Source: Amphiura filiformis (lineage: Eukaryota; Echinodermata; Ophiuroidea; Amphilepidida; Amphiuridae). Taken from it: 64,000 bases of DNA. The stretch is taken from NCBI RefSeq assembly GCF_039555335.1, contig NC_092629.1, positions 5,041,912 through 5,105,911 on the forward strand. The letters run 5' to 3'. Below are positions 7,401-61,612 of the stretch, piece after piece. Every line of letters starts with the position of its first letter. Position 1 is the first letter of the stretch. A program made the translations under genes and the position numbers. The notes under the pieces were generated by a model. It worked only from the letters and a program-made list of their open reading frames with translations. It made no database searches and was not told where the DNA came from.

Positions 7401-10400
7401 TCAGTGTACTTTAAATGTACTTTAATGTGGTCATGTGATGTTTACATGTATAAGTCACATGACTACATTCTTCTAGATTTGAAAATACCAACGGCCATTT
7501 TGTGGCAGATGTGCTAAGGTTGTATATTGCAATGGATGTATAAAACTATTCATTTATATAAAATGAAGCTAGGACTAAATACAGGCTTGATTACAGGAGA
7601 TAGTTACTGGTAATGTATACTTGTGAACATAATTGTGTTACCAATACTATGATAAGCTCCATAAATGTGGTAAGCTTAAGCTTATAATTATAACCTTACT
7701 GGTGTACAATGTTCCTTTGGTATGGAACCTTGTAAACACAAAACTGTCAGGGCTCACATTTTAGCAACAAATTTTAAAGTGGAAATGTATGTGATTTGGG
7801 GGATTTTGCCTAGTGGGAAGGGGAGGCAAACTGGGAGGACAAGAGAAATATTGCCCCCCTTGCCCCCCCCCCCCAAGCGCCGCCACTGAATATACTTGTT
7901 TTGGTATAAAGTATAATTAAAGTACAGTGCTTTAACTATGCTTGTTTGGTATAAAGTACAATTAAAGTACAGTACTTTAAATGTGCTTTTTCAGTATGCT
8001 TTAAATGTACTTTTCTGGTCATTGTGCTTTATTTGTACTTTAAAGGTACTTTATCATCGTTCCAAATGTCACACATTGGAATGTTGTTTAGAAAGCATAT
8101 TTAAAGTACAGTGCTTTAAATATACTTGTTTTGGTCCAGGGTTTTTTCAGGGCCACCCTTGGGAGGGTCAAAAATTGTCAGGGCCCAGGACACAGGTTCA
8201 ACACCAGGAAGCTTGACACCCCTATTGGTAATCCCTTTAACCTCCCCAACCACTCTATCTCCGACCTGGTCCTACATGTACACAGTCCGTGCCAACAGGG
8301 AGAAGTTTTGGATGAAGCACTAGACGTACCATCCAGCCACACAGTCTCAACATCCAAGAGGGAAACGACTATCATCATAATTCCCCCCTTTTATTTTCCC
8401 CCAATTTAAAAAAAAATGTTTCCCTCCACTTTATACTTTTAGTTTTTGTATATAGGCTATTTACTTCTTTATTCAAATGTTATATGTAGTTGAATTTTTA
8501 CCATTAATTTTCATTTTTATATTCAGCCCATTGTCTTCATTAATTTTACATCCCTTACTTCTGTGACATCCAACTTCCTGCCCTTATTGTTATTTTCCAG
8601 GAAACACTTATGTCTTCTAGTTCTATTGTTTTGCTTATTTTCTTTACCTCTATGTCCATGTCTTAGTCCATGTACCTAGTCTTAGTCCGAGTATATATTA
8701 TATGTATGTTTGTGTGTTGTCTTGTCACTTAATTGCCTTTGATAAAGATCCTGCTAGGATCAAAAGCTCAGGCCCATCATTTTACTTTAATATTTTGTGG
8801 ATAAACACAGCTCACTTTTAACTTTTAAGTTTTATATTCACCACAGGTTAAGAAATTTATCACAAAACTTCCCGGATATTGTGAACCTGGATCATTTGAG
8901 GATTCAAATGGGACGGAATTTTTCGTCATCAGTTTAAAAGAAATCCTGAAACAAGTAATGGCCACACCATATCTCTCCAAATCAATTGCAAGATTCCCAG
9001 AACAACACACAGATAGATTGATGAGGTTAGATGTACTTAAAGTAATGTCATCATGCTATATAATAATTTGTGGAATGACATTTTTAGTAATTTTAGAAAA
9101 TCACATCAGCCATAATGACCTTTGTATGACCTTTGACCTCATGGCTAGTGCATGTGTCAAGGGATATGTCATCGTGCTTTATGTAATTCATGTAATTCGT
9201 GTATGGAGTAGCAGTTTTAGTAAAAATAACAGAAAACTGACAGAAAGTCACATTTTCGGCCATAATGACCTTTCCATGACCTTTGACCTTAATTTAATTA
9301 GCATATTACAAGCAACCTATGGTGTAGTATATTACTTAGTTGACTGAGTGAATTTGAGTCATGTGGGTGTCCTACTGGACCCCAGCAGAATAGTCTGGGT
9401 GGGCCCCCCGGAGGACACTTTTGTATTTAAAGTTGTCACCTGTTTCCAAGGACTTTCATCTTCTTTTACCGATTACACAACATGGTAGTACGTACTACAT
9501 GAGTTAATTGTACTGACAAATATTTAGTCTTCCGTTCATATCAGGCTGCAAAATAATTGCCTTTTGGTGCCCCTATCAGTTGTCTTGATGTCATAATTGC
9601 TGCTATTCTTTAACATGTAATTGCCTTGTAAAATAGACATGCCCTTTCAAAATGGCCTTGAAATGGGGCTAAATGGGTGCCCTTTAATATTTGGCTATTT
9701 CCATTTTTCAATGTGTAATTGAGAGGCAAGGCAGTGACTGAGTGGGGGTCAGATTGTTTTCATATTATGTGGGTCATTATATTTTCCCCAGGAGCTAGGA
9801 GGACACTTTTGTATTCAAAGTTGTCACCTGAGGACCGATTTACACAACACGGTTGTACTTGGTACATGAGTTAATTGTACTGACAAAAAAGTCTTCAGTT
9901 TATATTTGTTTATATCAATAACAGTTTATTAACATTTTCTTTTTATACCCTTTCATCTCAATCAGAGAAATCTTTCAAGGACAGCAGTGGCTGCAGACTG
10001 CACAGTTGTGCACGCCTATGGTAGAAGTAGGCCGGAGTAACCAGTATTTTGTGCACGAATTTGTGCATGTTGGCCAATCATATGTGATTATATGCATAAT
10101 GAAATTCATTATGTTGGTAAGTCGATCTGCAGTTAGCATATTTATGTTAATTGAAATTTTTATATTTCTGATACATTATTTGTGATAGATGGTGATGGCT
10201 GGTGATAGCTAGTGATGGCTGGTGATACCTGCATGGTAACTGATGACACCTGGTGATGGCTGGTGATAGCTGTTGATGTTTGGTGATATAGCTGGTGATG
10301 GTTTATGATAGCTGGTGATAACTGGTGATACATCGTGATGGCTGCATATGGTGATAGCTGGTGATAGCTGGTGCTGTTGACGGTTGCATGGTGATAGCTG

Positions 10401-13400
10401 GTGATAACTGGTGATAGCTGGTCATGGCTGGTAATGAATGGTTATAACTTGTCATAGCTTGTGATAGCTGGTGATGGCTGATGGTTTGGTGATGGTTTGT
10501 GATGGTTGGTGATGTCTGGTGATACCTGGTGATAACTGGTGATACCTGGTGATTCCGTGGTGATACCTGGTGATGACTGGTGATAACTGGTGATACCTGG
10601 TGATGACTGGTGATAACTGGTGATACCTGGTGATGACTGGTGATAACTGGTTATATCTGGTTTTGGCTGGTGATAACTGGTGATACCGGCAAGGTGATGG
10701 TTGGTGACAGCTGGTGATAACTGGCGATGGCTGGTGATAACTGGTGGTACCTGGTGCGGGCTGGTGATATTGTTGGTGATAACTGGTGATAACTGCATGG
10801 TGATGGCTGGTGATACCTGGTGATGACTGGTGATAACTGGTGATACCTGGTGATGACTGGTGATAACGGGTTATATCTGGTGCTGGCTGGTGGTAACTGG
10901 TGATACCGGCATGGTGATGGTTGGTGACAGCTGGTGATAACTGGTGTTAACTGGTGACACTTGGTGATGGCTGGTGATACCTGGTGATGGTTAGTGGTAA
11001 CCATGGTAACTGGTGATACCTGGTGCTGGCTGGTGATATTGCTGGTGATAACATGGTGATACCTGGTGCTGGCTGGTGATATTGCTGGTGATAACATGGT
11101 GATACCTGATGGCTGGTGATACCTGGTGATGGCTGGTGATACCTGGTGATGACTGGTGATAACTGGTTATATCTGGTTTTGGCTGGTGATAACTGGTGAT
11201 ACCGGCATGGTGATGGTTGGTGACAGCTGGTGATAACTGGCGATGGCTGGTGATAACTGGTGGTACCTGGTGCGGGCTGGTGATATTGTTGGTGATAACT
11301 GGTGATACCTGCATGGTGATGGCTGGTGATACCTGGTGATGACTGGTGATAACTGGTGATACCTGGTGATGACTGGTGATAACTGGTTATATCTGGTGCT
11401 GGCTGGTGGTAACTGGTGATACCGGCATGGTGATGGTTGGTGACAGCTGGTGATAACTGGTGTCAACTGGTGATACTTGGTGATGGCTGGTGATACCTGG
11501 TGATGGTTGGTGATATTGCTGGTGATAACATGGTGATACCTGATGGCTGGTGATACCTGGTGATGGCTGGTGATACCTGGTGATAACTGGTTATATCTGG
11601 TGCTGGATGGTGATATCTGGTGATATCTGGTGATAACTGGGGATACCGGAATGGTGATGGTTGGTGACAGCTGGTGATAACTGGTGATGGCTGGTGATAA
11701 CTGGTGATACCTGGTGATGGCTAGAGATAACTGGTGATGGCTGGTGATAGTTGGTGAGTAGCAATAGCTAACAATGGTCATCAGGTGAAGAGCCATTGCC
11801 AATTTTGTGTTTTTTGAAATTGAAAAAAAATGTTTGAATATGTTTGAATTCACAGATAGATGATGGTGAAAATAAACTGATGGTGGTCGGGCTTGTCTGC
11901 AACGCAAGTGATGGTAAACTTAGATTTACCGGCAATTCGTTTTGTGGTAGAGTTGCCGATATCCATGGCCACTACAAAGGGCAAATAGATAGAGACAGTG
12001 TTGGATGGCACAATACCCAAAAGATGGATGAGGAAGTAAGGGGCTGTGCAATACTGAATTATGAGCCCGCTGGTGGTGGTAAACTTTCCAAATGGCATGC
12101 CAAAAATTGCTTAACCCCTTTTGGCCTATCAAAAATTACTTCCTCCCCCCTTGGTCTGCACAAAAATTTTGCCTCCCATTTGTACATGCCAAATTTTTTT
12201 AAATCCCATTTCCTTTAATGGTCTAGATACATGTTGCGAGCACAGAAGAAAGGAAATTTGCATATCTAAGTATTTACGTACTGTTTTCCTAATCCTTTTT
12301 AGAGCGTTTTAGTTTGAATGTGAGCCATAAAATCTGTGCCCCCCCCCCCCCTTAGCTTGCCTAAACTTGATTTTACCCTCTCACCAGGGCTCATACATGT
12401 AATTATTGCACAGCCCCTAAAACAGGCATAATTCTTCCCAGATGTAACAAAATTTCATAGGCCAAACATTTACTTGAAATAAAATGACATGGTTGACATT
12501 GGAGTGGTGGGTATGCATTGATATTTTGCTGATTTGAGTTCCTGTCAATTGCTTTTACTGTAGATTTTTAGATTATGATGTTAATTTACAGAAATAAGGT
12601 TTTGAGATGGGTTGGATTTTTTTTTACGAAAGTCATCAGTGGAATTACGGCTTATGAATTATGATGAATTATGACTGTGCCTGTTTACACTTATGATATG
12701 AATGACTTTATGAATTTGATTGCGACTTTTGCCCAATGTTAAGGGGGGTATTACTTTACATTACCATCATGTGAAAAACAATAATTTTTATAAATATTGG
12801 GGCATTCTTCATCAGGAAATGTTACAATATGGTTTTAACCTAATATGTCAATACAGGTTGTTGATGTGTTGGTGAATGAACATCCAATGAAAGCAAAGGC
12901 CAAGGGTCACAACATTATAACAGTTCCTGTTGTATTATTTTCGGATGATATCGGTGGAAACCGCTCAAAGAAATGGAAGAAATTCACAGTGTGGAGTTTG
13001 ACTATTGGAGGTAGGCCTATGTATAAACATGAAACTTAAATCAAAGAAATTAATGTTGGCACACGCTGGCATACTGAAGGTAAATTGCCACCCCCGTACT
13101 CCCCCACCCCCAGATCAATGTTGATGAAAGCACATCTATTTACATTCGGCTCTCCAGTCTCCCCAACATTGATTGAGGGGAATGGGGGAGGGAAGGGGAA
13201 AGGAGAAGGTTTGTGCTTTTTATCAAACATACTAATTTCACTGAATTATCAGAGCGGCAATGAAGAGTTCCAACTTCCAACATATTGTCAAGGTGTGCCA
13301 ACTATTAATTTTGTTGATTGTAGATATGTCCAGATCAGAGCTGGAGAACTCGAGTGCATTGCACTCCTGCTAATATGCAAGGCCAGGCGAGTAAATATGC

Positions 13401-16400
13401 GAGGCATGTGGGTAAATTGGAAAAGACTGAGATACTTACAAATTCCATGGTCAAACTTTGCTGAAAATGATATGCACTTTTCAAATCCTAGCTAGCTAAC
13501 ACCCTGGATGAACACCAAGACTTACCAATTATAGTGCCAGATCGAGCTGTGCATACATGTATATTTTGCAGGAATCAGGGTTGTTTAGGTGTGATGAAAA
13601 GAAGTTTTAATTTTGTGTATATGTCATGTACATATTTGTCAAAAAATTACATGAATATCCCACTGTTTCTCAATATAATCTTTGTACCATACTTCAAAAT
13701 TAATGACTGTTACTGCATGCCCTTTTCCCTTTATTTAGGATTACCTTTTAGAGAGAACTGCAAGCTCCAGAACAATTTTCTTCTGACGACATCGCAACAT
13801 GTCAGTGTTTGGGAGCTATGTACCCCGATAGTCCAGGAATTGAAAGAGCTAGAGTCAGAGGGCATGTTCTTATATGATGCTTCTGCCAAACAGACCGTCT
13901 TTGTCATAGCACCATTACTAATTGTAACCGCTGATAATGAGCGTGCATCCGAGCTTGTAAATCACTTAGGGTGCTCTGCGAACATGTTTTGTTCCTTATG
14001 CAAAGTAAGTACAAGTGTCTATATAGTCTTATTTTTAATTTCTGTTATTTTTGCATTCCATACACTTTATAATTTAAATAGTACCATAACACTAATTTAT
14101 TATGGTAGATGTGATTCATTGTCCAGTGTCTATATATAAATAATATAAAGTACCTAAATTATTGTAACAATAATAATGTTTCATTAACATGTATAGGCCC
14201 ATAAACAGAAGAACCCACACCAGATTGGGGAAGTGAGAACAAAACAAGAAACATGTGATATCATCAAGCAAATCAACCAAGCACCAACCAAGAGGTAGCT
14301 AATTTATTATAAATGAGTATTTTGTGATCCTAGCATCCTCTTCTTATGATTTTTTCCAGTATATATCCACAAAAAGAGCTTATTCCCAAAATTTATATTT
14401 TTTGCAAAACGAATTAATCTGCAAGCAACTTTTTGTACATAAACACTAAGTAGCCAGATGTTTCCAGTGGTATAAAAATCTCAACTTTTCTTTTCTGAGA
14501 AATGTGTGGGATGAGGTTGTGGATCACAAAATGCCCAAAATCACAGTAAATTTCTGTTCGGATAGGCAAGGTATCTTATTGGTGAAATACCAATCGCCCA
14601 TCATTCCCCAACGGTGTATTATGACGCGATTCATTGCAGGGAAAAATATTGATTTAGAGGCTGTCGACATTGAGCACAGGTTTAATGTATATATGTCAAG
14701 ACGTAAGACAAGTAGCAATATGTTCACAGTTTAAACGTCACTTGTTCAATGATAAACATGCATATGATGTGTTTAGCCATCATTTGATCAGTATAACTCC
14801 AAATAAAACTGGAGATCTCTGGTTTTAATATATCAGAACTTAATATTACTGTCATTTTGAGCACTTCAAATCACACATTATGGCTTTAACGCAAATTGAA
14901 TATTTATTGTATGTATCAATATGAAATGACATTTGTGATTTCTTTAATTTCAGTGCAAAGTCAGCTTTGAAAAGCTTGCATGGTGTGATTGCTACACCCA
15001 ATCCATTATTTCAGCTATCATCTTTCAGAGGCAACTTGTGAGTATAAACTATATAGTCTCAAATTAGTTTTAACTAGCGACCACCCGTCTTGCGCGGTCA
15101 GAGTCTTTCGCAGTTTTTTTAAATATTTTGTGAACATGTAGGCCTAAATGTTTTATTTAATGTGATTAATGGTACGAGAGGAGATTATCATAATATGTAG
15201 TATCCTTTCCATATAAATCAATGGCTTGAAATTGCAATTACATCATGATCGAAGCAAGTCTTGCCACCATCTCATATCCACCGTGAGAAGTCTTGCCCTG
15301 TTTGATGCTGGCCGCCCTGATATTTAAGATTTTTATGCATTTACAGTACTTTTTAGCCCATTTTGGACAAATTTGTTGTACTTTTTGGCCATTTTTTACC
15401 ATTTTCGTCCAAGTTTGTCACCCACCTTGAAATGTACCTTGCTGCCCCCTGCTAAAGTCCTGGCTACATCAATGAGCAGATGAACACACTTTTATTCAAT
15501 TCCCTCTTCGCCCCCTGTGGTATGCTGGCTGACCTGATATTTAAGATTTGTATGCACATACTTGTTGTACTTTTTATTTGTTAGCCCATTTTGGATAAAT
15601 TTGTTGTACTTTTTACTTTTTAGCCCATTTGTGACAATTTGCCCCCCCCCCCATGAAATTTGCCACTGTGCAGATGAAACAATTTTATTCACATTTCCTT
15701 GCACTCTTGTTTCATATTATTAAGTTATACAATTAAGATCATACAATGCTGATAGCATTACCACAAAGAACAGAGTAGGCCTATTCATGGTAAATAAAAT
15801 TCAGTGGTTTGAGAGGCACATAGGCAATTGCACCATATTATAATTAGCACAATTAAACTATAATACCCTCCTCACTTTGCTACACCAACAGCCCTTAGGG
15901 ACGCACCATTAGATTCTCAGGGTGGGGGTAGGAAGTTTTGAAAAAAATACTACCCACGACATGAGCAAAAAAAAAAAAACTTTCCCACACCAACACTAAA
16001 AAAAAACTTTCCCCACCTAACTGTGTATAAATGCATGAAATTAAAAAACAAAAACAAAATTCACCGCCTTTGGCGGCAACAAAAATTTCTTTCCTTACCA
16101 TAACTTCCTACCCACCCCCCCCAGTATCAAATGAAAAGTCCCTTATAGGTATGAGATGTTCATGATAGCAATCTTGACCTACAAAAAGGACATTATGAGA
16201 TGTTGACAATCTTCCAAAAAGGACATTTCATCCTTTTGAGTAAATGTTGACTTTATTGATGTGTGACTAATTAGGTGTTCATACACAGTCCCTGGTAGTG
16301 GTACTATATAATACTGTGTGATTGTATAGTAGGTAATTCAATGACCATGCAGACTACAGGCATAGTAACTTCACAAAAATGCCAGGACAGAAGGCCAATT

Positions 16401-35772: not shown

Positions 35773-38159
35773 GCCTTTATTTTTTTCACACCTGCCGAAA
35801 CGTTAGGGGTAGGGGTAACATATTACTACTTTATTTTTTATCAGTACATTTAACTGAGTCAAGTTTTAAATCACTATTTAGCTATTGAAATACTGAATAA
35901 AAAGACACAAAAAGCATCTCAATAGCTCATACCATTGAGGAGTTATGGCCTTTTCAAGCTCAAAATTAGACGAAAATTGCATTTTTTCCCAAATCAATTG
36001 TCACCCTGACCCCCAACTTTCTAACCCTGTTACAAAAATAAAGAAATTGATTTATCAATGCATTGCTTATTACCAACTTACAGTAATAAACTGGAAGTAA
36101 ACAACATTCATTTGGTTAGAGGATATGGAGAGCCAACTGACTTTGGAAGAAACCAAAATCACAGCTGTTTGGTAATCTAGGAATATAGGGTGTCCCAAGG
36201 TATGTTAGATTTTTTTACAATTCAACATATTTTGAACCTAAACATTTCCCCCCTAACCCATACAGAAACAATATGTCCATATTTAGATTCCTCGTCAAAT
36301 TTCCCTTCAGAAAATCTATACTTTGACTATGATAGGATAAGTAATTAAAATTTTACAGTAATTTATAGATTTTGAAGACATCTGCACTACAGTGTTTAAT
36401 ATGACAACAGGTAGTTTTGTATGGAAAAGTTTGTATTTTCTAGACTAAACCAATCATAAATTATTAAAAACAATTAGTAGAATTGTTTAGCTGTAAGGCC
36501 ATGAGTGTTTTAGATGCTAAATAGAGTCCAAATCCAATTTACAGCCTTTACAGAAGCAGATTACGCACTAAAAATACCAATCCCATAGAGTTTGTGTGTA
36601 CCACATCCCCCACCACCGCCACCATGCCCATTCTGAATTCTATGAATCACAGTGTCAGTATTAAAAAGGTTCAAGTATTTCTTTTTACAGGGTTGAAAGT
36701 GCATTTTATTTAGCAATAAAATGAGACCACAAGCATGACAATACCTTCTTGCTTGACAGAGATATCATCATTTGTTTTGAGTCGACTTTGGCAAAATGTA
36801 ACATCGCCACCTTTTTTTGGTGGCGAGCTCAAGACACACGACCCAATCTTTCCGCAAAAAACATGCTTCCAACATTCACTCAAATAGCAGGTGCATCTTT
36901 AGTCAATATTTATAGGTTTTAATGAATGTGTCTTGTTGAGAGTGAAATTGTACAACATAATGCACATGTACTGAGATGTTGATGCAATAATTCCTTTGCT
37001 TGAATGCTCACATACGGGTTATAACAACAGAATCCAAGATTTATTTCCAGTCTATCTCAACTGCACATACATGTACTATAACACTGTATACTTGTATTGA
37101 GATCTTATTCACCATGACAGTCATATGATGTTTTCTACCTCACAGTGAGGCTCGTCATCACCCAAATATTCAAAGTTAATCTGCACTACATCACAGTTTC
37201 TAAATATATATCTCTCCTTTAAAATCCCAAGCCCCAGTCATAGTTGATCGTTGACTTCTGTTGTGCCAGTCTGAAACAACAATAAAAACAACAACATCTT
37301 TATAATATTATATTATACAAATGATTAGTGTAATGAATAGGTATATAAAAATTATGTTTCAGTTAAAGCCATATTATAACATTTGCTATTGAGGACGCCT
37401 CACTGATTTTTAAAATTCATTTTTTACACGATTATATTGTACTTTATTAAACCAATATACCCTGCAAAAATCAAGACTCTAGGTGCTGTAGTTTTGTGAA
37501 AATCCGAGATTTTGAATAAAGCGCCGGAACCGGCGCCTTAGTATTACGATGGAATTACTAGGCGAACGCATACACGATGTTCATAACACACAGTCATGAC
37601 AGTACGTTACACGGCGTAAGGGACGGTGATCTACACAACAAAGGGTCGTTCTACAACATGACCGAAGGAGTGGTACGTATTGGCGACATACGCGCTGGTA
37701 GTAAATTCCAATTTTCTTTGCTTTGCCGTAGTTGTTCGGCTCAAAAATAAAAGGGGATATATCTGACAGTAAAAACTAACATTTTATGTCAAAGAAATGC
37801 TAATCTATTTTGTATGATAATGTTATAATATTGATTTAAATGAATATCAAAGCTCCTTCAACGTAGGCATTACTGTAGGCTCCTACATCTGCAGGCATCT
37901 GTATCAATCTTCTTCTCCAGGAAGTGGAGGCTTAGAATTTTGGCAAGTATCTGAGAATCCATTCTCTCAGAGATTTGAACTCCTGAATGGATTTGCAAGA
38001 ATCTTGCAAATATTTGAAGCCCACACATTAGCTCAATTTTCTGTTCAAAATTTCACCCCTGAAGTCTTAAATCAGGCATTAAGCTCATCATGAATCTACA
38101 TAAATAATTAAATGCCTAATTTTTAGGCCTTTGTAATCTTCCAAGTATTTATAATTATA

Positions 38160-39555
38160 CATGTACAATTGAAAGAGTGGTTCTTCGTCAATTGCAGCAA
38201 CACCTTTTTGACAATAACCTATTGGAAATAAATCAATCCGCGTATAGGAAGGGTCATAGTGTTGAAACCGCAGTACTGAGTGTCGTGGACCGCCTGCTCA
38301 AAAACTCTGATGAGAAATTTGTCTCACTCGTTGCCCTCCTTGACCTCAGTGCTGCGTTTGATACGCTCGACCACTCAATTCTTCTTAGACGCCTTGAAAT
38401 CACTTTCGGTATCAGTGGCAATGTTCTTAAATGGTTTCATTCATATGTGTCACAAAGATTCCAATCTGTCATTGTTAATGGTTCAACTTCAAACTGTGCC
38501 CACTTTTGTGCGGGGTTCCACAGGGCTCTGTATTGGGGCCAGTTTTGTTTACATTATATTCCCAATCCCTCTCAGATGTCATCAATCTTCACAATTGCTC
38601 TTTCCATAAGTATGCCGATGATACCGTTGTATTTCAAAGTGGTCCTCCTGAGAAGTTTGAGGTAACTAAGATCGCAATTCAGGAATGTATCAGTGACATT
38701 TTATGTTGGATGGACAGCAATAAGCTAATGCTAAACACAGATAAGACCGAGGTTATGATTGTGGGCACCACTTGGCGTGTTAAGCAGGTTGCTAGTAATT
38801 CCATCACAATTTTGAATTCTGATATCAAAATACAGGAGTCTGTTAAGTACCTTGGGGTGAGATTGGATCAAACGTTATCCATGTCCAGTCACATCAGTGA
38901 AGTTTGCCGCTCATCATTTTTGTCTTTAAGACGTATTGGGTGTATTCGGCCTTATCTGTCTGATAAAGCTACATCATGTCTTGTCAATTCAATTATTACA
39001 TCACGCCTTGACTTCTGTAACTCGTCCTTGACTGGTATCACCACTGACCAACTTAACAGACTTCAAAGAATACAAAATTGCGCGCCCGCTTAATCATGAA
39101 GAAAAGGAAGTATGAGCATATCACCCCGTCATATATGAGCTTCACTGGCTGCCATTAGAATTTCGGATTCAGTATAAGTTAGCTGTTCTTGCTTTTCGGC
39201 ACTTTGAAGATACTTTACCAACTTATCTGTCTGCTACGCTTCATGCGTACAAACCAGCTCGATCACTTGATCTTCTACTGAAAGATTATTGAAATCTCCC
39301 GTGTAAATCTAAAATCGGCTGGTGAACGCTCCTTTCATTTCGCTGCCCGGCTGTTTGGAACTCGCTTCCAAACAGCCTCCGTAACACACATTCGCTCACG
39401 CAGTTCAAAAAGCAACTTAAAACTCATCTTTTTCTTCGTGCTTTTCCGGATTCACATATATATGTAACTTGTTTGTCTTTATTGTTTGTGCGCTTTGAGT
39501 TCTTTTGAAGATTTGCGCTACTAAGAACCCTCCATTATTATTATTATTATTAATT
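38160..39555 (+). pseudogene. L2/CR1-like LINE, 5'-truncated, frameshifted reverse transcriptase
   Basis: The first frame gives RT motifs from finger to palm (NQSAYRKGHSVETA, LLDLSAAFDTLDHSILL). After a frameshift near 38510, the second gives CGVPQGSVLGPVLFTLY, YADDTVVF and NKLMLNTDKTEVM, with catalytic AFD and YADD intact, then LGVRLDQTLSMSSHI. A second shift follows near 39090. The tail ends in (ATT)n at 39535-39552, as in L2-type elements. No endonuclease domain is present. A dead copy. Confidence 0.85.
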
Positions 39556-43894: not shown

Positions 43895-45052
43895 AAAACC
43901 TGGTTATTGCCAACACTTTCTTCAAAAGGAAAGAAAATAGATACTGGACATGGGAAAGCCCAGGAGGAAAGATCAGGAATCAAATTGATTTTGTACTAAG
44001 TAGCCAGAGAAGCATACTACAGAATTGTGAAGTGATCACGAGCTAAGATACTACGTACTGAACAAGAAACTGGCACGACTGAAATTCATCAAGAATTCTA
44101 AAAAGAGCAAACTAAATATAATGCGAAAACTAGAATCAGCCAGATGAAAGACAAAATGGTATTCCTACATCTAGTAGAGAAGAAATACTCAACATCTGTG
44201 CAGAGTTTTACCAAGACCTATATAGCTCTCATTCTAACCAAAGTAAACCAAACTTCTTGTCTCCAGATCAAACAGACATAACACATGTAACGGTTAGAGA
44301 AGTAGAGACAGCAGTAAAACAAATGAAAGACAACAAGACACCTGGCACTGATGATATATCCAGTGACGTGTATAAGATAGGAGGTGCGGAAATCATCACT
44401 CAATTGACAAGACTTTACAACCAAATATTGACAGAAAAGAAGATACCAGCAGCCTGGAAGGAAGCCAAGATTATTCTTCTACATAAGAAAGGAGATAAAG
44501 AGGATATCAAAAACTACCGACCATTTAGTCTGCTTTCACATGCATATAAAATTTTCACACGAATCATTCAGAATAGAATCAAGATAATATTGGATGAGAA
44601 TCAACCTAGAGAGCAGGCAGGCTTCAGAGAGGGCTTCTCAACATCTGATCATCTGCATGCTTTGAACCAACTGATTGAGAAAGCAAATGAGTATCAGCTG
44701 AAGCTTTGTATAGGCTTTATAGATTATGAGAAAGCTTTTGATTCGGTGGAACATAGTGATCTATTTGCAGCCTTAAGCAGGATTCGAGTTAACGAGGGGT
44801 ATGTTAAGATTCTAGAAGACAGCTACACAAACGCCACAGCTACAATCCACATAGATAAGGATGTCTCCAAGCCTATCCACATACAGAGGGGAGTACGGCA
44901 AGGGGACACAATCTCTCCAAAAATATTCACAGCTGCCATGGAACAAATTTTCAAACAACTAGATTTAGAAGAAAGAGGCATCAACATCGATACAGAATGG
45001 TTAACTGACCTGAGGTTTGCTGATGATGTAGCCCTTACATCACAGTGTGAAC
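43895..45052 (+). pseudogene. RTE-like LINE fragment: end of endonuclease plus reverse transcriptase
   Basis: The endonuclease tail (IANTFFKRKENRYWTWESPG, IRNQIDFVLSS) is followed by a short linker with stops. From 44257 a long open RT frame has KTPGTDDIS, YRPFSLLSHAYKIF, FIDYEKAFDSVEH, GVRQGDTISP and LRFADDVAL; the AFD and FADD boxes are present. It is similar to RTE-type endonuclease-RT proteins of invertebrates. The frame leaves homology at about 45050 and the 3' end is missing. Confidence 0.85.
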
Positions 45053-45916
45053 AAAAACCGCATCCTGATAATCATGTATGGTTTTCAATTGTCATCGGTT
45101 TGGCATATTAATTATACTTTTTCGGCGTTTAATTGTCTGCAGATTGGCCGAAACTGCTAAAAACGTATATATTGTGTATATTTATATATTATAATTATTC
45201 AATGAGATTGATGACCATCTTAAAATTGACACGTCACAATGATTTGTCCGATCTCAATTCCATTCTTGGTTTGTGAAGCTTTCATAAAGATCATTCACGT
45301 AGTAACATTACGTGTTTCTGCACTTCGTTTTGAGGGGATATTTTCAAATATAAAATGACTTTGCTGGGACGTATATGTTAAATTTGTATTACAATTGCAT
45401 GTGTTTTGGCAGTCGGGGAATGCCGCATCTGCCCGCCTCCCGTCATGAAATCCTGCAGACGCCACTGACTCCGATCACTTTCTTTTCTAATTTCCAAAAA
45501 TTTTAACATAGATCAGTAAACCCATTTGAATGTATACTTCGTTCAGTCATTCTGGGGGTTCGGGGATTAAATTGATCCCCCTGAGTTTAATTACTAATCA
45601 ACCTCTCTCCCCACCAAGAAATGTCGACCCCGAAAACTAACCCCAAAATAATTGTTGGGCAAAACTGGTCTAAAATTGAAAATTGGTCTAGTAAACGCAA
45701 AATGCTACCATAATTTTAGGCTTAAATAGTGTACAATTAAAAGAAACGCGCCTCCCGCACAATCATCACTATAACACAGGGCAGATGCCCACCAGGAATA
45801 ATGTTTATCTTTGCATCCTCAGACAACTCACCCCACGACGCTGAAAATGTAAAATCATACAACCTACCCCCCCCCTTCCTCAAATGAATTTTTACAATGA
45901 CTACACTGATCAAGCT

Positions 45917-50520: not shown

Positions 50521-51560
50521 CCCATTTGGTAGAGTGTAAATGTGATTTTTGAATGAGAGCAGAACACAAGTGTGTCATTTCCGCCTTATCTGGGGTTCAT
50601 GTCCCTTATATGGGGTTTAAACTGCCTTATCTTGGGTTTACATCCCATATCTAGGGATAAGGTTATCTGTGGTTTAGACGACCTTATCCTGGGTTTAGGT
50701 TCCTTACCTGTGGCTAAGATGCCTTAACATTAGCATATCGCAGTCTAAACCCAGATAAGGCATCTAAACCCCCAGATAATGCGCCGTAACTCCAGATAAG
50801 CGACGTAGACCCCCGATAAAGCAGTCCAAACCCCAAATAAGGCGCATTAACCCTAAATAAGGAATATAAACCCCAGATAAGGCATCTTAACCCCACATAA
50901 GATACCTTAACTCTAGATAAGGGTCGTTAACCCCAGATAGGGGTCGTCTACCCGTTTGGTAGAGCGTAAATGTGATTTTTGAATGAGAGCAGAACATAAG
51001 TGTGTCATTTCCGCCTTATCTGGGGTTCATGTCCCTTATATGGGGTTTAAACTGCCTTATTTTGGGTTTACATCCTTATCTAGGGATAAGGCGCGTTATC
51101 TGTGGTTTAGACGGCCTTATCCTGGGTTTAGGTTCCTTACCTGTGGCTAAGATGCCTTAACATTAGCATATCGCTGTCTAAACCCAGATAAGGCATCTAA
51201 ACCCCCAGATAACTGGGGATAAGCGACGTAGACCCCAGATAAGCGACGTAGACCCGAGATAAAGCAGTCCGAACCCCAAATAAGGCGCCTTAACCCTAAA
51301 TAAGGAACATAAACCCCAGATAAGGTATCTAAACCCCACATAAGGTGCCTTAACTCTAGATAAGGGTCGTTAACCCCAGATAAGGGTCGTAAACCTCAGA
51401 TAAGGCATTTAAACCCAAGATAAGGCGCCTTAACCCCAGATAAGAGACGTAAACTCAAATATGGCAGTCTAAACCCCAGATAATTTGGGGTTGGGACTGC
51501 TTTATCTACGTCCCTTATCTGGGGTTACGGCGCCTTATCTGGGGTTTAGACTGCCATATC
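50520..51560. repeat. Inverted satellite: ~17 bp CCTTATCTGGGGTTT unit, ~430 bp duplicated block
   Basis: Within each block a run of forward units (ccttatctggggtt) switches to its reverse complement (aaccccagataagg) at about 50735 and 51170, making large imperfect palindromes. The whole block, starting 'cccatttggtagagtgtaaa' (50521), recurs as 'cccgtttggtagagcgtaaa' (50951). Forward units resume near 51490. Non-coding. Confidence 0.85.
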
Positions 51561-56574: not shown

Positions 56575-57502
56575 CGATAGAGAGCAGGGCTTGAAGAATG
56601 AGGGAAATTAAAACCACAGACCGCCAACAACCGCCGCTTAATAGGGATGTCAAACTAGATTACCCTACATGGTTACAAAGAACCACAAACCGCGAATTTT
56701 GGATATCCACCTAAATTGCCCCGCGGGGCTACAAAGAAGTATGGTTATCCAACAAGCTTAAGCTATAAATTACCCACTCCCCTAGAGATCAGGGCTTGAA
56801 GAATGAGGGAAATTAAAAACCACAAATCGCGAAAGACCGCCAACAACCGCCGCTCAATTGGCATGTCAAACTAGATTGCCCCACAGGGCTACAAAGAACC
56901 ACAAACCGCGAAATATGGATATCCAACCAGTTTAAAAGACAAATTAGCCACCGATAGAGGCCAGGGCCTGAAGAATTAGAGAAATTAAAACCACAAACCG
57001 CGAAAGAACGCCAAAAACCGCCGCTCACTAGGGATATCCAACTAGATTGGCCCGCATGGCTACAAAGTACCACAAACCGCGAAATTTGGATATCCAACAA
57101 ATTAAAACCACAAACTGCGAAAGACCACCAACAACCGCCGCTCAATAGAGACATTCAAAAACCACACACCGCGAAGTATAGTTATCCAACAAGCTTAAAC
57201 TATAAACTAACCCCTGATAGAGGGTAGAGCATGAAGAATGACGGAAATCAAAACCACAAACCGCGAAAGACCGCCAACAACCGCCGCTTAATAGGGAAAT
57301 TCAACTAGCTCTATAAATCTAAATAACTATCAACCGCGAAATTGGGATATCCAACTAGATTGCCCCGCAGGGCTACAAAGAACCACACACCGCGATGTAT
57401 AGTTATCCAACAAGAAAATAAATTAACTCCCGATAGAGGGTAGGGCATGAAGAATGAGGGAAATTAAAACTACAAACCGCGAAAGACCTCCAACAACCGC
57501 CG
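56575..57502. repeat. Degenerate satellite, left part (ACCACAAACCGCGAAA-type units)
   Basis: The units 'gaccgccaacaaccgccgct', 'ggatatccaactagattgcc' and 'ccgcagggctacaaagaacc' recur with variable spacing (about 180-260 bp between 'gaagaatgagggaaat' marks). The array continues at 60180-60475 after the Transib-like insertion. Confidence 0.85.
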
Positions 57503-58496
57503 CACAGTGGGCCAGGGTGGAATCAAAGTGTGCCAAAATTAAAATTTGGTGAATGTGGAATTTCCAAACTTTTTCAGTTGTTTGAGAAAGAAAACATTCT
57601 GAAGTATATTATTTGCCCCATAATTTATGTTTCGATGGATTTCATAAGTGTCGTATAGTCATGAATTTGCCCCAAAAGTGTTATATTTTCTCTTAAAATG
57701 GTAAAAGTGTGAATTTTGAAAACAACTAATGTAACGTTAGTAAATGAGAAACTGTTGTCTTACCATTGTGCATATGTCATACCTAATAGTAGTCAAACCA
57801 GATCATTCAAGCCAAAATATAAATAATTGTATTAATCAGGAGTAATGAGGGGTCTAATTTGGTGAAATACGGTAAAAATATGCATTTTTGGGAAAAAATT
57901 GAAATTTAGTTTGGATTCCTGTCGATTCCTGTTCAAAAAATAATGTTATCATTTGTAGACAAGTCTTAGAACTATGTTGATGGCAATGGTTTTTGCAAAT
58001 ATTTGCCAGCCTGCATTCCAGGGCCCATACAATGTACCCTATTTGCTCACATTTCAGCTGATTTTGATGGATCAGTACGGCGTACGGGTTTATCATGTCA
58101 TGTGCATAGCGCCCCGGGATAGCGCCCTCATATTGCTTAAATGCCCTGGGGATTTTGCGGTTTTCACTACAACTCTGCTCTAAGTAGCATAAGGTCTCAA
58201 TATTTTAAAACATCATTGATCGAGATAAAACAAAATCATGGAATCTCTATCAAAAACTTTTTTTTATGCTGCTTATGCAGCAGGCTCACTTTCAGATATA
58301 AATTTATCATACCATGTTTGTATGGATGCTTTGCACATTCATCATAGAATTGAACTTCCAGATAACATAGCTTAACATTTTGAAAGGTATTAAAAGACAG
58401 TAAAAAGCATTCTTTATCGTTTACATGAACGATGGAAGACACTATGTGGATCATTTCACACTCAAAATAAAGACTGGCTTAACCGGAAACTGACAT

Positions 58497-58739
58497 TTGA
58501 TGAAGAACTCCAATGCAGCAGCTGAACTTTCAGCTGCAGAGGTTCGTAGCACTTCTCATTCTGAAGGAACTTCATCAGCACCAGCACCTCCTAGGAGGGC
58601 CGAGACGTCCATCGAATATGTGGGAGGCACTGTCGATCGTTCAAAGAAAAGGAAGGCACATGATCTTTTAGAAGAAAAAGAGCCTGATATACGCAGCATC
58701 ACAAGGCATAGGCCTATGCTAACTATACATTTGGATTAG
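58497..58739 (+). CDS. Unrecognised 80-codon frame inside the Transib-like element
   Basis: It opens at an ATG and is Ala/Ser-rich at the start (AAAELSAAEVRST, SSAPAPPRRAE), then basic-acidic (DRSKKRKAHDLLEEKEPD). KKRK could be a nuclear localisation signal. Composition looks coding rather than random. It could be a terminal exon of a lost transposon protein or of a captured host gene. It matches no domain I know. Confidence 0.3.
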   Translation: MMKNSNAAAELSAAEVRSTSHSEGTSSAPAPPRRAETSIEYVGGTVDRSKKRKAHDLLEEKEPDIRSITRHRPMLTIHLD

Positions 58740-59564
58740 TTTTAATCATGATAATGGTATATATCATAAAACAATTTCATGAAAGTAGCTCAGTTTCACA
58801 GTTCATATGAAAAACCCTAAGCTCTGTGCTGAAATTAAAGACATGTGATAAAGTTGTGATCGTTTTGGTCGGAAAAATAATTGTTTTTAAAATTATGAAT
58901 ATCAGGGAATTAGAGTAGGCCTATTCTAACCTCATTAGCCTTTTGATTGAAACGTACATTCATATATTACATGCACATTCTATTCTGCTTTGAACATCCA
59001 TATAAATTATAGAATGTATGAAAGAAACTCAAGACACAAGAACCATGGTCTGCCAATTTTAAACGTGACATCTAGATTTGGTATTACGTCTAGGCCTACT
59101 TGAAAAAAATCCAATTCACATTCGCCTATAGGCTATAGCGAACGACCGAATCACGTGTTTGTAATGGAGAATTGCAATTTGAATCAAATTATTTAGTGTC
59201 GTTTGTGATGACGTTGAAGTTGTAACATCCGGGGTGGGGATCTTCCATTGACATGGTATACGTATTATGTGCTTGCCTTTTGGGTGCTTTTTTTGCCAAT
59301 TTTGGTAAAGCGATGGGTGGGTTTTCACCATAGACGAAAACGCCCAGTATTATTGTGTATTTTGATAAACATATTGGCAAAAGCACCCAATTTGAGCAAA
59401 ATCGGTTGCTTTTTCAACGAAATTGGTATATTGATGGGTTGCAAATTAGGGCCAAAATTACGTTTAAGACAATGGCAACGTTTTGGAGTCCGGCAGGAAG
59501 AATCACCTACAAATAATTTCCACCACCCCCCGGGCCCACCCCCAACATTTAGTCTGGTTGGTTG

Positions 59565-60110
59565 TTTGTTTGCTTATATTAAACAATTACAATGTCTGCA
59601 TTTTATTGATGTCATATGTATTAGAAAATGCCGTCAGTGAATTTTGCAATCCGTATAACCTTGAATATGCTATTTGATAATACTTTTCCAATCGGACATT
59701 TGAATCACTGTTGTAAGAGTAATTAACCAATCACGGCTCGTTATTTTAATGACGTCATATGCCTTGGAAAATGGATCTATTGGATTCCGCAGTCCTTAAA
59801 ACCCCCGATTTTAAAGTTTTTATAATACTTCTTACACAGGCATTTGAATTATTGCGGGAGGAATAATTGACCAATCATATATCAGCATATTAATGACGTC
59901 ATGCGCTTTCCAAAATGTCATCATTGAATTTTGCTCCCCTTGGAACCCCTATTTTGCTTTTTCAATTAAAATTTTAACATGTATCATTTGAAATACTGTT
60001 GTAAAAATAATCGACCAATCACCGTTCAGCATTTTTATGACGTCATACATTTCTAAAAATGCTTCCATTGAATTCTGCAGCCTCGAAAACCCCTAATATA
60101 GTCATTTTAC
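59565..60110 (+). repeat. Four ~144 bp internal repeats, each with a TGACGTCA-type site
   Basis: TGACGTCA lies at 59750, 59894 and 60038 (spacing exactly 144), with TGATGTCA at 59607 (143 upstream). The last three copies have 'accaatca' 15-25 bp before the site and 'ttgaattytgc'-like sequence after it. They form the right subterminal part of the Transib-like element. Confidence 0.85.
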
Positions 60111-60179
60111 CGTGTTTGTATGTGTTTGATTGTCCGTTTATAATTTTGGCACACTTTGAGGCGATTCTGGCCCACTGTG

Positions 60180-60475
60180 CGCCGCTTAATAGGAAATCCA
60201 ACTAGATTGCCCCGCAGGGCTACAAAGAACTATCAAACGCGAAATTTGGATATCCAACTAGATTGCCCCGCAGGGCTACAAAAACCACAATCATGGTTGG
60301 CATGAAGAATGAGGGAAATAAAACTACAAACCGCGAAAGACCGCCAACAACCGCCGCTTAATAGAGAAATCCAACTAGATTGCCCCGCAGGGCTACAAAG
60401 AACTATCAACCGCGAAATTTGGAGATCCAACTAGATTGCCCCGCAGGCTACAAAAACTGCAATCATTAAAACATA
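60180..60475. repeat. Degenerate satellite, right part
   Basis: It continues the array of 56575-57502 with the same units ('gattgccccgcagggctaca', 'gaccgccaacaaccgccgct'), starting with the second CGCCG duplication. Confidence 0.85.
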
Positions 60476-60866
60476 ATTATCTTGCTAAGTCGTGGCACTT
60501 AGACGCTTCCGTAGTATAAGCCTTGCTACATATACGCGCATTTCTCAGCTTCAATTTGAAGTAAATCGCACTGACTCTGTGTCTCGCTGGCATCGTCAAC
60601 ATTGGGTATGTGTTGTTCATGTTTAAATTTTCTTAGTTGCCTTGAATAAAGTATATTAAAATGTATATGTATCCCTATTCACGCGGTAGCTGTGACCAGC
60701 AAGTTTTAAAAATAAACGGCTGATAAAGTTTTATTAAATTATTTACTGTCATAAATCAAGGATAACAAACATCTATGTTTCGTTTTATTCGTTTTATGGA
60801 GTACTTCGTAACCCGATGACTTTCCAAACTTAGAGCTACTTGGCTACATTCATAAAAAGAAATAAA

Positions 60867-61323
60867 ATCCACCAAAAAAACGTTGACAACGTAAAGAAAG
60901 TAGCAAGTTTAAAAAGCCCCCACCTCGGCTCACTTTTTGAAACTTGGTCCCATTTTGAATATCAACAGCAAATCGGTGTTTTTAACGTTTAAACAATAGC
61001 ATCATTGCCATTAACATGCCTACTTGTTATTCGTTTAATTCAATCATTGATCATGAACTTAATAATTATTATAAAACAAAACATATATAGGATATTGGCT
61101 AAGAACAACATAATAACCTTTCTGATCGTTCCAGAATGCTAACAACTTAATATCGCATCGGCACATTAAAGATACATAACACTTCTGGAAATGTTTTAAG
61201 TTGATAATTATGACAAAGTTTAAATCAGTATCTTTTACAAATGGGACCAAGTTTCAAAAAGTGAGCCGAGGTGGGGGCTTTTTAAACTTGCTTTCTTTAC
61301 GTTGTCAACGTTTTTTGGTGGAT
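60867..61323. mobile_element. TIR element with ~88 bp arms (ATCCACCAAAAAAACG)
   Basis: The left arm 60867-60956 ('atccaccaaaaaaacgttga', 'aaaaagcccccacctcggct') is inverted almost perfectly at 61236-61323. The spacer of about 280 bp is AT-rich and non-coding. It abuts the LINE fragment at 61320-61612. Confidence 0.85.
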
Positions 61324-61612
61324 ATCATCTACTGGTGTTCTGATATCAGCAAAGAGAATTGTTCTAGCTAATCTGTTGTGAAGTACTTGAAGCTGATATT
61401 GATTGGTTGCAGAACAGTTAGACCAAACACTGCTGGCATAGTCGAAATGTGGAATTACAAGTGCATTATACGGCATAACTAAGGTTTTATGAGGAAGGAA
61501 ATACTTTGCACGTTTCACAACACCAATTCTCTTGGAAACATTTCCAGATAAATAATCAATATGTGATGACCAAGACATATTACTATCGAACTTAATACCA
61601 AGATAAAGGTGA
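61320..61612 (-). pseudogene. CR1-like LINE fragment (after the RT palm)
   Basis: The minus frame reads LYLGIKFDSNMSWSSHIDYL, then KRIGVVKRAKYFLP, YNALVIPHFDYASSVWSNC and LQVLHNRLARTI. This is the LGV-D-L-W-HI / HFDY-VW block of CR1/Jockey LINEs. It is cut on the left by the 60.9-61.3 kb element and on the right by an FB3 fold-back. Confidence 0.8.

Follow-up and report, generated by a model that had tools for sequence, protein, structure and literature searches.

A likely non-autonomous Transib-type transposon with doubled end motifs in a satellite array of Amphiura filiformis

Introduction

In the accepted view, RAG recombination derives from Transib or RAG-like (RAGL) elements, and the recombinase of the antibody genes is related to Transib. 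A sequence-only reading of 64,000 nucleotides of the Amphiura filiformis genome (the window, meaning the whole stretch of DNA that was analysed) had picked out an element, inserted in a satellite, whose two ends carry the heptamer of the V(D)J recombination signal sequence (RSS). It offered two identities: a non-autonomous Transib or a relative of the RAGL/ProtoRAG elements. This locus raises the question of which kind of transposon was inserted here, and of how its ends are built. Comparisons with published elements draw on the papers cited below and, for the identity of the element, also on PMC6941560.

Results

Borders of the element and its target site

The insertion and its immediate flanks are made up as follows; the wider coordinates 57498-60184 given earlier count both target-site duplications as well.

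57498..57502, no strand: left target-site duplication CGCCG, read directly
57503..60179, + strand: whole element, 2677 bp, probably a non-autonomous Transib-type transposon
57503..57541, + strand: left 39-bp terminal inverted repeat, opening with CACAGTG
60141..60179, - strand: right 39-bp terminal inverted repeat, opening with CACAGTG
60180..60184, no strand: right target-site duplication CGCCG, read directly

The perfect CGCCG flanks described in the sequence-only reading are thus present, and its statement that removal of the element restores the satellite holds as well. The surrounding monomers repeat from about 56.6 to 60.45 kb. Excision of the element with one CGCCG leaves a 120-bp join whose identity to the adjacent monomer (60299-60417) is 96.7% over 120 alignment columns; it is 85-87% identical to the satellite at two more full-length places, other matches being weaker or shorter. 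In addition, six further places in the window agree with the target site at 16 or more of its 21 bases, and every one of them has an intact CGCCGCT.

These six uninterrupted sites, together with the joined flanks, fix the borders and the 5-bp duplication, given ends of the form CAC..GTG: such ends are compatible with the uninterrupted site only if the duplication is 5 bp long, and the 3 bp on the left (CCG) and on the right (CGC) differ. A 3-bp GCC duplication is arithmetically possible, since CGCCG has palindromic outer bases, though only with ends GCAC..GTGC, and we know of no family that fits such ends together with a 3-bp duplication. CGCCG is a form of the palindrome CGNCG, a target rule of this type being known for Transib; CGNCG occurs at 47 positions in the window, eight of them in the satellite when both duplications are counted. 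The target of this one insertion is therefore both GC-rich and palindromic.

Agreement between the two ends

The arrangement CACAGTG-N23-CCAAAATTA, in which CCAAAATTA is the final nine bases of the repeat, is found twice in the window, at 57503-57541 (+) and 60141-60179 (-), and never in 100 shuffles, in agreement with the earlier description of both ends as a heptamer, 23 bp and a 9-mer. The ends are identical at 34 of 39 positions. As a control for chance we considered the 123 pairs of CAC and GTG that are separated by 100-6000 bp and flanked by a perfect 5-bp duplication; after the element pair, the best of them reached 18/39. The five mismatches fall at positions 14, 15, 17, 19 and 20, and five random positions among 39 span 7 or fewer with P = 0.00087, the span having been chosen post hoc. 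As had been stated, the ends are thus identical over their outer 13 bp and their inner 18 bp, while the 8 bp in between, said to differ, do so at five positions and agree at three.

Exact scans with the CACAGTG-type end pattern, which fixes 16 of the 39 positions, returned 68 stretches in bacterial and archaeal genome contigs and two in viral contigs. These 70 stretches agree with the ends of the element at 18 to 26 of 39 positions and include neither the full outer 13-mer (0/70) nor the full inner 18-mer (0/70), and we take them as chance occurrences and not as relatives. We considered a CACAGTG/CACTGTG pair at 12985/15664, with a similar distance between its members, as a possible autonomous partner but rejected it: there is little agreement past the heptamer, the flanks have no duplication in common, and the left heptamer lies inside a reading frame of a tnp2-type gene. 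The exons of a tnp2/Transposase_21-type gene extend over 12839-14139; the open reading frame at 13492-14139 matches with E = 0.0007, below the Pfam cut-off, and a probable upstream exon at about 12839-13018 has an open frame with VLFSDDIGGNRSKKWKKFTVWSLTIG.

A related 13-mer occurs twice in each end

Each terminal repeat contains two similar blocks.

57503..57515, + strand: outer 13-mer CACAGTGGGCCAG, left end
57524..57536, + strand: inner 13-mer CAAAGTGTGCCAA of the left end, offset by 21 bp from the outer 13-mer and mismatched to it at three positions
60146..60158, - strand: inner 13-mer CAAAGTGTGCCAA, right end
60167..60179, - strand: outer 13-mer CACAGTGGGCCAG, right end

The outer and inner blocks are identical at 10 of 13 positions at an offset of 21 bp. 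When all offsets from 13 to 26 were allowed, 126 of 20000 shuffles of the left end contained a 13-mer repeat with at least 10 matches. By comparison, CCAAAATTA agrees with the RSS nonamer at five of nine positions, and spacers of 22 and 28 also reach 5/9 at both ends. For these reasons the description of the ends as heptamer, 23 bp and nonamer is in part arbitrary, and a more apt description is a pair of related 13-mers, offset by 21 bp, with a variable 8-bp block between them. The earlier suggestion of two separate binding blocks gains support, at the level of the sequence, from the clustering of the mismatches (P about 0.0009) and from the likeness of the blocks (10/13).

The analogy with the RSS is exact as far as the heptamer CACAGTG is concerned, and an A-containing block lies at about the position of the nonamer. 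Beyond this it was overdrawn: the nonamer agreement of 5/9 is not better at a spacing of 23 than elsewhere and, since the spacing is equal at both ends of the element, there is no 12/23 asymmetry. The ends therefore lack the unequal spacers and the nonamer of a V(D)J 12/23 pair, and, unlike a 23-RSS, these equal ends bound a transposon-like insertion. In the available parts of the Transib literature examined we found no description of paired 13-mers 21 bp apart, and a search that covered few subscription journals found no co-mention of Transib and CACAGTGG.

Possible coding remnants and searches for a transposase

Two overlapping pieces of reading frame lie within the element.

58238..58513, + strand: piece A, 92 codons that begin with an ATG and include two in-frame stops, a possible transposase remnant
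58500..58736, + strand: piece B, open for 79 codons before a stop, in the frame following that of piece A, whose end it overlaps

By a rough composition test, trained on four short stretches (in-frame Pfam-matched parts and one whole open reading frame), the base-position composition of piece B is coding-like: 41 of 18220 frames in the window score as high (0.2%), as do 18 of 17065 once the training frames and the pieces are removed, and none of 3406 elsewhere in the element. The composition of piece A is not coding-like, with 2590 of 18220 window frames as high (14%). The two pieces may resemble the start of Transib transposases, with a basic R-S-K-K-R-K stretch and an R-W..W-L pattern. Neither had a match in Pfam or in viral contigs (piece A being searched from 58244), and PDB gave unrelated chains only, at E 0.5-0.6. 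Against the nonamer-binding domain of mouse RAG1, shuffles scored as high in 1488 of 2000 cases for piece B and 1991 of 2000 for piece A.

The sequence-only reading had proposed a search for RAG1-like or Transib transposase genes. Six-frame translation of the element gave no Pfam family above the cut-off, the RAG1L and RAG2L families included, and one match to an unrelated DUF at E = 0.12; the RAG1 family was sought in these six frames, in four frames within the element and in 19 other open reading frames, and was not found. The Pfam RAG1 model has little sensitivity for Transib: a Transib core that matches HzTransib at E = 2e-121 scored 21.5 bits against a cut-off of 25. Transib cores (that of structure 6pqn and the one just mentioned) gave nothing above noise in the window (best E 1.1, in a search run without a positive control) and no match in viral contigs. 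A RAG1 family search of four genomes and then of 369 of their class, one genome being in both sets, matched neither the family nor the controls and so carries no weight.

Other features of the element and the window

Towards its right end the element carries a short tandem array.

59655..60086, + strand: three diverged 144-bp tandem repeats

These repeats are about 70% alike, yet CCAATCA and ATGACGTCAT (CCAAT-box and CRE-like, respectively) are unchanged in each. Separate from the element is a fold-back at 60862-61328, with perfectly complementary 54-bp arms 283 bases apart and further arms outward. Reverse-transcriptase reading frames at 38120-39093 and 44134-45111 (RVT_1, E 8.1e-09 to 8.3e-28) probably belong to two LINE-type elements. 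A 1.6-kb minisatellite at 10182-11762 consists of about 155 copies of the 10-bp unit GTGATAGCTG with 71% matches, and at 50521-51390 a 443-bp unit is repeated once in tandem, the two copies being 92% alike; short repeats such as AACCCCAAATAAGGC abound in the stretch where it lies. Over the window (1-64000), TAGGCCTA occurs 16 times, overlapping occurrences included, as against 0.7 expected from base composition and 14.4 from its 7-mers; looking for this motif in the literature gave no match.

Discussion

Our findings make it likely that what was inserted here is a cut-and-paste DNA transposon belonging to the Transib superfamily, in a decayed and non-autonomous copy. Among the known superfamilies it is Transib that is indicated by the combination of heptamer-like CAC..GTG inverted repeats, a 5-bp duplication and a GC-rich, palindromic target. 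We infer this membership from the ends, the window having yielded no match to the core of a Transib transposase, whose gene a non-autonomous copy may lack. Transib insertions make duplications of 5 bp, in 532 of 533 cases for hopper and in 7 of 7 for transib2, and the hopper target motif is GC-rich and palindromic (PMC3276498). The Drosophila elements hopper and transib2 and Hztransib of Helicoverpa are like this element in their CAC start, duplication length and palindromic target. Symmetric ends, too, are found in some Transib elements: they occur among the members of subgroup II, those of subgroup I all being asymmetric (PMC9435367). Other features count against the assignment. Symmetric-spacer Transib ends have spacers of 20-22 bp (PMC8355894, figure legend), and a spacer read as 23 falls outside this range; the duplication CGCCG differs from the published target motifs CCANTGG and CABHG (PMC3276498) and from the GCTCG of Hztransib (PMC1852546). 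This copy also differs from those elements in carrying no recognisable transposase and in having two related 13-mers in its ends. With the doubled motif as the exception, it looks like an otherwise ordinary member of the superfamily.

Chapaev duplications are 4 bp long and those of Mirage 2 bp, and these families bear on the possibility that the element belongs to another branch, known or undescribed, of the EnSpm-Mirage-Chapaev-Transib clade that happens to make 5-bp duplications. Ends of the form CA..TG predominate in this clade, CAC..GTG being found in some EnSpm/CACTA families, and its duplications range from 2 to 5 bp (PMC12730594); an EnSpm-type tnp2 gene is present in the window at 13492-14139, albeit below the Pfam cut-off. 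EnSpm makes duplications of 3 bp (PMC12730594), whereas with CAC..GTG ends only 5 bp restores the uninterrupted site here. None of the duplication lengths of EnSpm/CACTA (3 bp), Chapaev (4 bp) and Mirage (2 bp) is seen at this element, and we regard an origin in another branch as unlikely.

The second identity offered at the outset, a non-autonomous relative of the RAGL/ProtoRAG elements (which encode RAG1-like and RAG2-like proteins) moved by a RAG1L-RAG2L complex, has several points in its favour. RAGL elements share a 5-bp duplication and a CAC start with our element, and some of them are non-autonomous (PMC7204232). The ends of AanRAGL open with CACA and are built from 13-bp and 10-bp elements (PMC9435367), and the sea-star TransibSU has 13-bp identical ends (PMC4411706), so that neither a CACA start nor a 13-bp block is foreign to the group. 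Most RAGL ends start with CACT, that of ProtoRAG being CACTATG (PMC8289069), and the element shows neither this nor the CACTWMC start of protostome RAGL ends; its CACA start does not in itself exclude RAGL, since AanRAGL shares it. It is the following positions that make the fit a poor one. The protostome RAGL ends, CACTWMCAAACKTYKBB, have AAA at positions 8-10, aligned with the A-rich region of deuterostome ends (PMC7204232), and the AanRAGL end CACACCCAAACCT also has AAA there (PMC9435367), whereas CACAGTGGGCCAG has GGC at both ends of our element. The ends are moreover symmetric, as against the asymmetric 27/31 bp of ProtoRAG and 4/13 bp of AanRAGL (PMC8289069, PMC9435367). The six frames of the element contain no match to the Pfam RAG1 family, although a non-autonomous copy could do without the RAG1L and RAG2L genes. 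Of the two identities, then, it is Transib that the duplication, the CAC..GTG termini, the GC-rich palindromic target and the symmetric ends favour, and the RAGL identity, with GGC at positions 8-10, seems to us distinctly improbable.

Ends starting with CAC are not typical of hAT elements, although CAGTGGG is present at bases 3-9 of the end of the element. A hAT-type origin would have to involve a family such as hAT5: hAT duplications are of 8 bp, and of 5-7 bp in hAT5 to hAT7, so that the observed 5 bp fits hAT5 only (PMC12730594). When CAGTGG is taken as the terminus, however, the flanks become ...CGCCGCA and TGCGCCGC. These have no duplication in common, nor is the uninterrupted site restored, and we consider such an origin highly improbable. 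That the inverted repeats arose by chance in repetitive DNA, without any transposon, is scarcely credible when the ends agree at 34 of 39 positions against 18 of 39 for the next best of the 123 candidate pairs and when the satellite is restored in phase.

If the element is a Transib, its history may be pictured as follows. With a Transib transposase supplied in trans from another part of the genome, both 39-bp ends would be bound and cut immediately outside their CAC; their insertion into a GC-rich palindromic target, at cuts staggered by 5 bp, would then leave the CGCCG duplications in the satellite repeat. In each end the two related 13-mers could be points of transposase contact separated by two turns of the helix, and the stretch at 58238-58736 might, very tentatively, be what remains of the beginning of a transposase gene.

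The doubled motif invites a more speculative proposal, which we think has only a slender chance of being right: each end may be a tandem duplication of one binding motif, of which the outer copy, CACAGTGGGCCAG, keeps the CAC needed for activity while the inner copy, CAAAGTGTGCCAA, has lost it (CAA). The CAC triplet is essential for the activity of ProtoRAG (PMC8289069); since the inner copy has CAA in its place, our guess is that it might be bound and yet escape cutting.

Taken alone, the element leaves the derivation of RAG recombination from Transib/RAGL elements unchanged. What it contributes is a single candidate Transib insertion whose borders are well defined, which has the exact RSS heptamer at each end, and whose insertion site lends itself to checking against satellite copies nearby. 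Its doubled 13-mer provides a testable idea about the origin of two-part transposon ends: if the proposal of a tandem duplication is true, a bipartite end composed of a heptamer, a spacer and a second block can arise through duplication of one motif and disarming of the inner copy, and this would be a concrete evolutionary route to the bipartite ends of Transib and, by extension, to RSS-like signals.
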